A stretch of DNA of 33,553 nt from an uncultured Bacteroidales bacterium. Lineage in GTDB: Bacteria > Bacteroidota > Bacteroidia > Bacteroidales > Bacteroidaceae. A model generated the notes under the pieces. It was given only the letters and a program-made list of their open reading frames with translations. It was not told where the DNA came from and did not search any database. Shown piece after piece: positions 5,782 to 7,392 of this stretch. Made by a program: the position numbers and the translations under genes. Position 1 is the first letter of the stretch. Each line of letters begins with the position of its first letter. Location: contig CADCBO010000024.1 of assembly GCA_902799685.1 (NCBI GenBank), forward strand, positions 1 through 33,553, written 5' to 3'.

Positions 5782-5789
5782 TACTTTTG
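5782..5789 (+). promoter_or_regulatory. -7 box for the small basic protein gene
   Basis: TACTTTTG matches TAnnTTTG exactly and lies 30 bases upstream of the ATG at 5820. The same octamer recurs before the HTH gene (6072) and before the internal DUF805 start (6537). Confidence 0.45.
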
Positions 5790-5819: not shown

Positions 5820-6014
5820 ATGAAGAACAGGAAGAAACAAATCGGGACACTGGCAGACTATGTGAAAGCCAATAGGAAAGCTAGCCGCGATGAGGAGATC
5901 CAGGCTCACGGAAAGCAGGTCTCAATGCGCCCGGCTGTATTCAAATCCAAGAAAGCTTATGACCGCAAGAGACACAAAAAGGCAGGCATCAACTCCGATG
6001 AACTGTCTTTATGA
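5820..6014 (+). CDS. Small basic conserved-type hypothetical protein (64 aa)
   Basis: This is a 64-residue, strongly basic protein with no signal peptide or membrane segment. It starts MKNRKKQIGTLADYVKANRK and has a KSKKAYDRKRHKK stretch near the end. The lysine/arginine content suggests nucleic-acid or ribosome contact, but I see no named domain. I have the impression that similar short proteins of the form TLxDYVKxxRKAxRxxEI...KSKKxYDRK are common in Bacteroidales; this is recollection, not a search. It has its own TACTTTTG promoter box. The HTH gene follows after an 83-base gap that holds GTTGCG repeats, so it may be regulated separately from that gene. Coding status is supported by the promoter and by the ATG-to-stop frame filling the space. 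Confidence 0.65.
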   Translation: MKNRKKQIGTLADYVKANRKASRDEEIQAHGKQVSMRPAVFKSKKAYDRKRHKKAGINSDELSL

Positions 6015-6023
6015 TTGTGTTTT

Positions 6024-6045
6024 GTTGCGGTTTTGTTGCGCAACA
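6024..6045. promoter_or_regulatory. Operator-like GTTGCG repeats upstream of the HTH gene
   Basis: The segment contains the direct repeat TTTTGTTGCG twice (starting 6021 and 6031). The second copy is part of the 12-bp perfect palindrome TGTTGCGCAACA at 6034-6045. The core GTTGCGCAAC (6035-6044) is exactly 27 bases before the TACTTTTG box at 6072. The same core and spacing recur at 6500-6544. Confidence 0.6.
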
Positions 6046-6071
6046 CGGAGGTGTTGATGGCAAATAAGCAT

Positions 6072-6079
6072 TACTTTTG
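6072..6079 (+). promoter_or_regulatory. -7 box for the HTH gene
   Basis: TACTTTTG is an exact TAnnTTTG match, 18 bases before the ATG at 6098. It sets that ATG, rather than the upstream TTG at 6077 inside the box, as the likely start. Confidence 0.5.
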
Positions 6080-6097
6080 CTGAAAACAATACAGATT

Positions 6098-6754
6098 ATG
6101 GATCCCAGAACCGATGTCCTGAATTCCTGCCTTTCGGAATTCCGCAACACACCCGAGGCCAACACCCTTGTATATTACCGCAGCCGTGACAGCCGTCTCT
6201 CTTTTGATGAGCGGATGGCTATAACACGTAGCATAGAAAAGGCGTTTTCACCGATGTTTCTGCAGCTTAAGACAGAGTCTCCGTCGTTGTCGGAATCAGA
6301 CCTAATATACTGTGCGCTTGTGGCTGCAGGACTGAGTCCGGTTGTGATAGCCGACTGCATATCCATTTCAAAGGACAGCCTGCGCATGCGCAAGATCCGC
6401 GTAAAGGAGAAGCTTTCCCTGCCGTGGGCAGAACTGCTGTTCCCGGAGCAGGATGTTGCGGGCGCAACAAAAAACGCAACAGAAAAATGTGACGATAATG
6501 TTGCGCAACATAATTCTGAGGGCAAAGATACCGCCATACTTTTGCAGCAAAACCAATTAAACTCAAAAGTTATGGAAACAAAAAAAATCACATTCGGCCA
6601 GGCCATCAAGTTGGGCTTCAGGAACTGCTTCAGGTTCTCCGGCCGCGCATCGAGATCGGAATTCTGGTATTTCATCCTGTTCTACGCAATCATATTGAGT
6701 GTGGTAGTAATATTTGGACCTTTCATTCTCCATATATTACGTTCAATCTATTGA
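6098..6754 (+). CDS. HTH (LuxR/sigma-region-4-like) protein running in frame into the N-terminal half of a DUF805 domain
   Basis: The 218-residue frame has two different halves. Residues about 1-125 are a soluble DNA-binding-type protein with the helix-turn-helix segment SESDLIYCALVAAGLSPVVI followed by ADCISISKDSLRMRKIRVKEK, like the LuxR/sigma region 4-type domains seen at the C-terminus of some Bacteroidales regulators. Residues 159-218 start at an internal in-frame ATG (6572, METKKITFGQAIKLGF). They carry the DUF805 N-terminal signature FRFSGRASRSEFWYFILF and one membrane helix, then stop at TGA 6752-6754. The other half of DUF805 continues in another frame (see 6766-7392). The linker (about 125-158) is polar and its DNA holds a palindrome and a promoter box. 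Originally there may have been two genes, an HTH regulator and a DUF805 membrane protein, joined by loss of a stop codon. A genuine membrane-anchored regulator is the alternative. Confidence 0.7.
   Translation: MDPRTDVLNSCLSEFRNTPEANTLVYYRSRDSRLSFDERMAITRSIEKAFSPMFLQLKTESPSLSESDLIYCALVAAGLSPVVIADCISISKDSLRMRKIRVKEKLSLPWAELLFPEQDVAGATKNATEKCDDNVAQHNSEGKDTAILLQQNQLNSKVMETKKITFGQAIKLGFRNCFRFSGRASRSEFWYFILFYAIILSVVVIFGPFILHILRSIY
6455..6511. promoter_or_regulatory. Operator-like GTTGCG/CGCAAC repeat cluster before the internal DUF805 start
   Basis: Inside the HTH/DUF805 frame there are five copies of the hexamer GTTGCG or its complement (6455-6460, 6463-6468, 6475-6480 and two in the palindrome). 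The cluster ends in the 14-bp perfect palindrome ATGTTGCGCAACAT at 6498-6511. Its core GTTGCGCAAC (6500-6509) is 27 bases before TACTTTTG at 6537, the same layout as upstream of the HTH gene. Confidence 0.6.
6537..6544 (+). promoter_or_regulatory. -7 box for an internal DUF805 transcript
   Basis: TACTTTTG is an exact TAnnTTTG match, 27 bases upstream of the in-frame ATG at 6572 (METKKITFGQ). It suggests that the DUF805 part is also expressed alone. Confidence 0.5.
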
Positions 6755-6765
6755 AACCAACCCTA

Positions 6766-7392
6766 ATGTTAAACCGTAAAAAATCCAATATGAATCTTTT
6801 TCTGCCACAAATGATCAGTTCAGGAATACTGGCTGTTATACTCTTTATACTGTTACTTCCCACCCTGTCTCTCACTGTACGCAGGCTTCATGACACCGAG
6901 CGTAACGGTGCCCTGATACTTATAACCGTCGCTCCGCTTGCCATAATGGCTGTAATGAACCTCTTGTCGGTACTGTTTTTCACCACAACAGGCACAACTC
7001 AGGTTTCCCAGACGCAGGACAACGGATGGAGAATAATAGATGTTCCCGATGAATACATTGCCGAAAACGGCAATGTCCTGTGGGATTCCATAAAAGACCC
7101 CAACGTCATAGAGACATACTCCTATGACAAAGACGGAGATATAGTGATGGAACCTAAAGTTGACGTCATCTATGTACAAAAATATGACAAGAACGGGAAA
7201 TTAGTGTTGGATGTTCAAGAATCCCCAACCAAAAAGGCTAATGACAAACGTTTGATTGCAAGTACAGCCGGAATTCAGTCTCTGTTGTTTTTATTCTGGA
7301 TCATATCCTTTGTGATCATGATAGTCTGGTGCGCACAGCCCGGAACCGAAGGGCCCAACAAATATGGCCCTGACCCCAGTATCCTGGAATAA
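6766..7392 (+). CDS. C-terminal half of the DUF805 membrane protein, in a shifted frame
   Basis: This frame continues the DUF805 domain begun in the previous entry. It has a membrane helix SGILAVILFILLLPTLSL followed by the DUF805 hallmark TVRRLHDTERNGALI, another helix, a polar loop of about 85 residues rich in Asp and Lys, a third helix and the family-typical ending CAQPGTEGPNKYGPDPSI. DUF805 proteins are normally one chain with GRAxRxEFW and RRLHD motifs together, so the split points to a one-base insertion (or two-base deletion) just before the TGA at 6752, or an assembly error. The open frame reaches back to TTG 6751, overlapping the stop of the first part. The ATG at 6766 is a possible restart, allowing a two-chain protein by coupled translation. 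No classical slippery heptamer is visible. It ends in a hairpin shared with the convergent GNAT gene. Confidence 0.7.
   Translation: MLNRKKSNMNLFLPQMISSGILAVILFILLLPTLSLTVRRLHDTERNGALILITVAPLAIMAVMNLLSVLFFTTTGTTQVSQTQDNGWRIIDVPDEYIAENGNVLWDSIKDPNVIETYSYDKDGDIVMEPKVDVIYVQKYDKNGKLVLDVQESPTKKANDKRLIASTAGIQSLLFLFWIISFVIMIVWCAQPGTEGPNKYGPDPSILE

Follow-up and report, generated by a model that had tools for sequence, protein, structure and literature searches.

The HTH-DUF805 gene described here carries two copies of one promoter-like module, the first upstream of the gene (P1) and the second within it (P2), and sequence comparison suggests that the gene's own HTH protein probably binds the heptamer arrays of both, controlling synthesis of the whole protein from P1 and of the DUF805 part alone from P2. 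The gene lies in a window of 33,553 nucleotides (contig CADCBO010000024.1, from an uncultured Bacteroidales bacterium). Its product would be a transcription regulator in which a C-terminal DUF805 domain anchors an N-terminal, probably tetrahelical HTH domain in the membrane. This HTH would recognize arrays of a heptamer specific to it, the copies lying a helical turn from each other, near positions -49 and -38 relative to a -7 box of the sigma-A type; the array before the gene would serve expression of the whole protein, and the array in the linker-coding DNA that of DUF805 alone, by way of an internal ATG. We infer that the protein's own HTH binds the arrays, that P2 is used, that DUF805 tethers the protein to the membrane, and which sign the control has.

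Both autoregulation and promoters inside genes are familiar forms of control. An internal start as such is ordinary, since 21% of transcription starts in B. thetaiotaomicron are internal according to a passage of PMC7366714; the standout feature of this locus is the repeated putative self-operator, rather than the internal start. If the 11-bp heptamer layout should prove to be the general self-operator of this HTH branch in Bacteroidaceae, sequence alone could reveal the operators and specificity of a regulator family that is so far uncharacterised. Across the roughly thirty related proteins of a single genus, changes in the operator letters go with changes at one recognition-helix residue; through this natural series, a binding code can be tested directly. 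The locus also provides a clear case of coding sequence held by an apparent promoter/operator function, and a possible feedback design in which the gene for a regulator contains the switch for its own membrane-only half. For DUF805, a domain of unknown function, this would provide a functional setting.

To our knowledge, few operators have been defined for Bacteroidales regulators. Among the titles and abstract openings of the literature, no description was found of autoregulation combined with an intragenic promoter, with matched private operators at both promoters and a recognition-helix residue that tracks them. At the same level of title or abstract opening, the DUF805 literature held nothing on such a system, and no described case appeared under intragenic promoters in membrane-bound regulators, TPR-LuxR regulators, membrane-tethered activators, or NarL heptamers.

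Organization of the locus

ORF1 begins with the ATG at 6098 and runs on the + strand to 6754 (218 residues). It encodes the HTH domain of about 118 residues (1 to 118), a linker, and the first part of DUF805, which contains a long helix that is probably the first membrane helix. The predicted recognition helix (residues 92 to 105) is encoded at 6371 to 6412 on the + strand, with residue 100, an Ile, at codon 6395-6397. A second, in-frame ATG lies within ORF1 at 6572, and the predicted P2 product is the 60-residue N-terminal part of DUF805 alone (6572 to 6754, +). The rest of DUF805 is found downstream in ORF2 (6790 to 7392, +), whose plausible start is the ATG at 6790, the listed open frame beginning at TTG 6751. 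Both ORFs pass the Pfam gathering score of 25.7 for DUF805 (PF05656), ORF1 with 29.2 bits and ORF2 with 59.2 bits.

The DUF805 split in the window consists of a stop followed by a plausible restart (6752-6790). Within the window (GTTGCG) clade, DUF805 is split after the first helix in L003, L004, L005, and the decayed copy L042, from four genomes. A frameshift or assembly error in the window is disfavoured because L004, L005, and L042 have a similar split and a plausible new start, with stops at differing positions.

P1 contains the heptamer TGTTGCG at 6023 to 6029 and again at 6034 to 6040 (both +), 49 and 38 bp before its -7 box; the second copy extends to the palindrome GTTGCGCAAC (6035-6044). 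The box, TACTTTTG, is of the TAnnTTTG type and lies at 6072 to 6079 (+), giving a predicted start at about 6084. P2 has the same layout: TGTGACG at 6488 to 6494 and TGTTGCG at 6499 to 6505 (both +), again 49 and 38 bp before the internal box, with GTTGCGCAAC at 6500-6509 and the box TACTTTTG at 6537 to 6544 (+; codons ATA CTT TTG), giving a predicted start at about 6549. The starts expected at 6084 and 6549 assume that the box occupies -12 to -5, as a passage of PMC9723704 gives for Flavobacterium. TAnnTTTG, present before both window starts, is the Bacteroidetes sigma-A -7 consensus in passages of PMC7366714 and PMC9723704. By eye, the -33 region of P1 has TTG at 6053-6055, and P2 is without TTTG at such a distance; in Flavobacterium johnsoniae, a -33 TTTG element was not found, according to a passage of PMC7366714.

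An earlier note on this DNA had reported that GTTGCGCAAC-N27-TACTTTTG occurs twice, and it does so exactly as claimed, at 6035-6079 and 6500-6544. This 45-bp module was absent from 100 dinucleotide shuffles, and a search of the genome (2.81 Mb in 37 contigs, 85.8% complete) for GTTGCGCAAC-N24..30-TAnnTTTG returned only the two window sites, with 0 for the backward control. The eight hexamers that the note counted are all present (GTTGCG at 6024, 6035, 6455, and 6500; CGCAAC at 6039, 6463, 6475, and 6504). Three of them, GTTGCG 6455 and CGCAAC 6463 and 6475, are extra half-sites within the linker (6455 to 6480, +), and one more CGCAAC lies inside the HTH coding part at 6143. It is the pairing with the box that is unusual; the palindrome alone is not rare: GTTGCGCAAC with up to one mismatch is found 2 times in the window, a count reached in 29 of 100 shuffles.

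A basic 64-residue ORF (5820-6014, +) precedes the gene and has its own TACTTTTG box near 5782. It is present in 4 of the 37 genomes of the genus, adjoining the HTH-DUF805 gene in the window's own genome, G000 (before it), and in G003 (after it), and lying away from such a gene in the remaining two.

Distribution of the HTH-DUF805 fusion

Searched against the 37 genomes of the genus, the HTH query matched 32 places at E 1.6e-19 or better. These are 30 distinct intact fusions from 21 genomes, a further place in G025 whose protein is identical to one of the 30, and a decayed fragment in G019; one relative, L010, is partly masked. Nine genomes, G025 among them, carry at least two fusions of different groups, each with its own heptamer. 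No fusion was found outside the genus at E 1e-10 among 295 genomes drawn evenly across the order. At E 1e-12, the matches in 301 genomes of the family were confined to this genus and one other, g30, where the matching proteins appear to be longer and to carry the HTH at their end. A Pfam search found DUF805 in all 11 aligned fusions at E 0.1 or better, and in the same fusions and the window ORFs no Pfam HTH match up to E 0.1. Those of the relatives' genomes with a recorded source are metagenome assemblies, from water buffalo rumen, yak reticulum, reindeer, and horse faeces among others; the bacteria are uncultured gut bacteria, known mostly from grazing animals.

A direct repeat of heptamers as the candidate operator

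Judged from the sequences, the common candidate operator consists of heptamers repeated in the same orientation at a distance of 11 bp, or one helical turn. In a test that presupposes no motif, the identity of each 7-mer with the 7-mer 8 to 15 bp onward was scored by position before the box and compared with 300 local shuffles. P1, P2, and the promoters of TPR-HTH relatives all gave their peak at a lag of 11, the first copy lying at -50/-49. For P1 of the fusions, identity at lag 11 was 5.33 of 7 (18 non-redundant sequences of 29), the largest shuffle value being 3.44; for the TPR-HTH promoters it was 3.86 of 7 against 2.93 (29 non-redundant of 35). P2 is the weakest of the three sets, with 4.57 of 7 against 3.86 in 7 non-redundant sequences of 28, in only 3 of which (L005, L012, and L018) does the best single repeat fall between -53 and -49. 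The upstream arrays of type D are displaced to -51/-40, except in L021, which has no upstream array. Additional proximal half-sites, near -29 and -18 before the box, occur only in P1 of types A and B.

The earlier note had taken the palindrome as the basic operator. In the nearest two relatives with an intact gene (HTH identity 89% and 76%), neither palindrome has been lost; among farther relatives, most retain the layout but spell it with different letters. Types A, B, and D lack a perfect palindrome at both places, and the palindrome as the general operator is rejected because the 11-bp direct repeat is what most have in common instead. It is a local form of the repeat in two clades: TGTTGCGCAACA in the window and TGTAACGTTACA in L019, L020, L039, and L040.

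Nor is this kind of site confined to the HTH-DUF805 locus, since some HTH relatives without DUF805 show the same 11-bp layout. The TPR-HTH set, from this genus and g30, comprised 46 loci (L176 left out), 35 of them with a usable box and 29 non-redundant. A 6-of-7 repeat at lag 10-12 was found in 18 of the 29 promoters (shuffles: mean 5.5, largest 11); by eye, about a dozen of those 18 have a clear GC-containing heptamer repeat and the others none. In TPR-HTH genes of other families (30 loci, 18 with a match reaching the HTH part, 10 with a usable box), the repeat maximum did not fall at lag 11.

A wide HTH regulon was not found. TGTWRCG-N31-TAnnTTTG has 47 matches in the 37 genomes, of which 34 are at fusions or their remnants and 13 elsewhere, compared with 10 for the backward control; in G000 it matches only the two window sites. 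With up to 2 mismatches, TGTTGCG-N4-TGTTGCG has 27 sites in G000 versus 12 in the control (an excess of 15), and its sole mismatch-free occurrence there is the one at 6023. The searches of the window's own genome revealed no other conspicuous target.

The putative internal promoter is conserved as DNA

As the earlier note had it, a promoter-like module precedes the HTH gene and another of the same layout lies within the gene, ahead of the DUF805 start; the internal one is widely kept. In 28 of the 30 distinct fusions, the linker contains an in-frame TAnnTTTG in the same codon phase, and an in-frame ATG 35 or 38 nt from the start of the box. In most of the 28, heptamers resembling TGTnnCG also precede the internal box by about 49 and 38 bp, a layout seen upstream of the gene as well. 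The box is absent from L006, whose linker is deleted in frame, and, by eye, from L043.

The linker codons are constrained as DNA. The codons of the box always read [AC]TA-nnT-TTG (23 ATA, 5 CTA; TTG in 28 of 28), with TTG accounting for 14.9% of Leu codons elsewhere in the fusion ORFs, and the middle residue varies among Leu, Thr, and Pro, exactly at the nn positions. Among 11 representatives chosen from the 30 fusions, synonymous-codon identity between groups is lowest in the HTH (0.43) and DUF805 (0.50), rising to 0.75 in the site codons, 0.83 in codons 150-159, and 1.00 in the box codons (108 of 108 comparisons); amino-acid identity is 0.29-0.43 in the linker outside the box versus 0.50 in the HTH. 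The internal ATG is invariant in the 11 aligned proteins. Box positions differ among fusions only by multiples of three, and therefore the fused HTH-DUF805 protein is probably used too.

There are also natural derivatives of the gene. L076 (2989-3870, in the horse-faeces genome G019) is a DUF805 copy from which the HTH is gone, with the box, ATG, and DUF805 kept. Type A-like upstream DNA is followed there by the internal array, the two being joined at AATGTTACG, a 9-mer present in both arrays of most type A genes. The left 40 bases are identical at 34 positions to the upstream DNA of L006, and the right 60 at 59 positions to the internal DNA of L008; from its sequence, L076 looks like a deletion between two AATGTTACG copies. 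A relic of an internal promoter, followed by the last codons of a DUF805-like gene, is seen in L120 (1500-1610, G035).

Arrays and recognition helix vary together

By their operator letters, the genes fall into six groups: G (the window, L004, and L005), A, B, C1, L033 (a single gene), and D. These groups follow clades, so there are about six comparisons here rather than thirty. By each of three measures, upstream and internal arrays are most alike within the group (1 of 720 permutations). In fixed register, this match comes from the -38 heptamer, whose identity is 0.90 within a gene and 0.77 between groups; at -49, identity within a gene (0.65) does not exceed that between groups (0.70), and the flanks of the arrays are at background similarity.

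Of the 118 HTH columns, only residue 100 separates all six groups (I; K/R; L; Y; F; S), and this residue falls in the predicted recognition helix. In the decayed copy L042, too, residue 100 is I, and the internal site is GTTGCGCAAC. Residue 100 alone does not set the heptamer letters, since TPR-HTH relatives reuse L, Y, and F at the equivalent position with other heptamers. The proposal of the earlier note that one DNA-binding protein, plausibly the adjacent HTH protein, controls both promoters is strengthened by the group-matched arrays and by the recognition-helix residue that follows the groups; the palindrome as its basic operator has to be given up.

Models for the control of P1 and P2

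The usual place for activators to bind is upstream of the promoter core. If the box occupies -12 to -5 (a passage of PMC9723704), the shared sites would begin at about -61 and -50 from the start. Because these sites lie upstream of the core and the proximal half-sites occur only in P1 (types A and B), the protein may activate P2 and, at high occupancy, restrain P1. A plausible consequence would be a self-limiting loop, with the form that bears the HTH being diluted or replaced by free DUF805 in the membrane. We tentatively extend this to a possible, more specific picture, that of a self-titrating membrane regulator with a private heptamer code largely set by residue 100, which, through two copies of the module, drives its own membrane half as a brake, the -49/-38 layout being the general self-operator of this HTH branch in Bacteroidaceae.

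Both arrays might instead be read by a regulator other than the gene's own HTH. The heptamers are short, and trans-acting regulators commonly pair two promoters; however, one shared regulator could hardly read all of the differing heptamers in the nine genomes with at least two fusion groups, the letters vary with a single residue in the recognition helix of the adjacent HTH, and some TPR-HTH relatives have the same layout, with other heptamers, before their own genes. We regard an outside regulator as unlikely.

Repression is a different matter, since there the gene's own HTH would still bind both arrays, mainly to repress, for instance by looping across 465 bp or by blocking elongation, and the internal box would be minor or silent. 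That two operators flank the HTH coding part would suit such a design, as would the added proximal half-sites that types A and B have in P1. Yet constraint is strongest in the codons of the internal box and in the stretch from there to the internal ATG, and looping alone needs neither; moreover, the internal ATG does not vary among the aligned proteins, and L076 retains box and ATG despite the loss of its HTH. This reading, too, is improbable.

Duplication or gene conversion, making the promoters similar without a shared regulator, has very little probability. Shared 9-12-mers could recombine rarely, and the resemblance of L076 to a deletion between AATGTTACG copies is in keeping with this, but outside the -38 heptamer the two arrays of one gene are, in fixed register, no more alike than arrays of different groups. 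That the flanks are at background speaks against conversion, as does the differing order and orientation of same-group heptamers in the two arrays. Finally, the internal motif is scarcely a mere by-product of a conserved protein linker, since, although the linker is in frame in the 28 boxed fusions with box positions differing by multiples of three, its non-box amino acids are less conserved, and its synonymous codons more conserved, than those of the HTH.

Relationship to other regulators

As proposed, the locus would have points in common with several known systems. The Tn5 transposase inhibitor and short McrB are N-terminally shortened proteins made from intragenic promoters. As in those cases, a single reading frame would yield two products, the short one without the DNA-binding part; unlike them, the internal promoter of the window shares group-specific heptamers with the main promoter. 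CadC and ToxR are membrane-bound one-component regulators, and they resemble the window protein in combining a DNA-binding domain and a membrane tie (predicted in the window) in one protein; the anchor in the window differs in being DUF805, which is probably also made alone from inside the gene. The HTH has weak profile matches to EvgA (E 0.05). Its comparison with NarL/LuxR (GerE-like) domains gives low Z, with sigma-region-4-like domains scoring nearly as high, and the window protein has no receiver or ligand domain.

The BT3442-type TPR/HTH regulators of Bacteroidetes (NF053779) have a C-terminal part to which the window HTH is weakly similar (E 2.4e-4). The window protein itself falls outside NF053779, scoring 19.9 bits against a cut-off of 940, with residues 40-108 aligned to 479-547 of the 563 profile positions. 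The BT3442 kind carries its HTH at the C-terminus, preceded by TPR and (by eye) a membrane helix, whereas in the window protein the HTH is N-terminal, without TPR and with DUF805 after it. Some members of the BT3442 kind, in this genus and one other Bacteroidaceae genus, show heptamers upstream of their own gene in the same 11-bp arrangement as the fusions. The heptamers of the TPR-HTH relatives differ (TTGTCCC, GGAACG, GCAAC). Tandem TTGTCCC-like repeats 11 bp apart precede the starts of the TPR-HTH genes L133, L135 (G000), L141, L148, L151, and L174, and tandem GGAACG-like repeats about 11 bp apart precede those of the other Bacteroidaceae genus (L139, L140, L180, L181, and L182).
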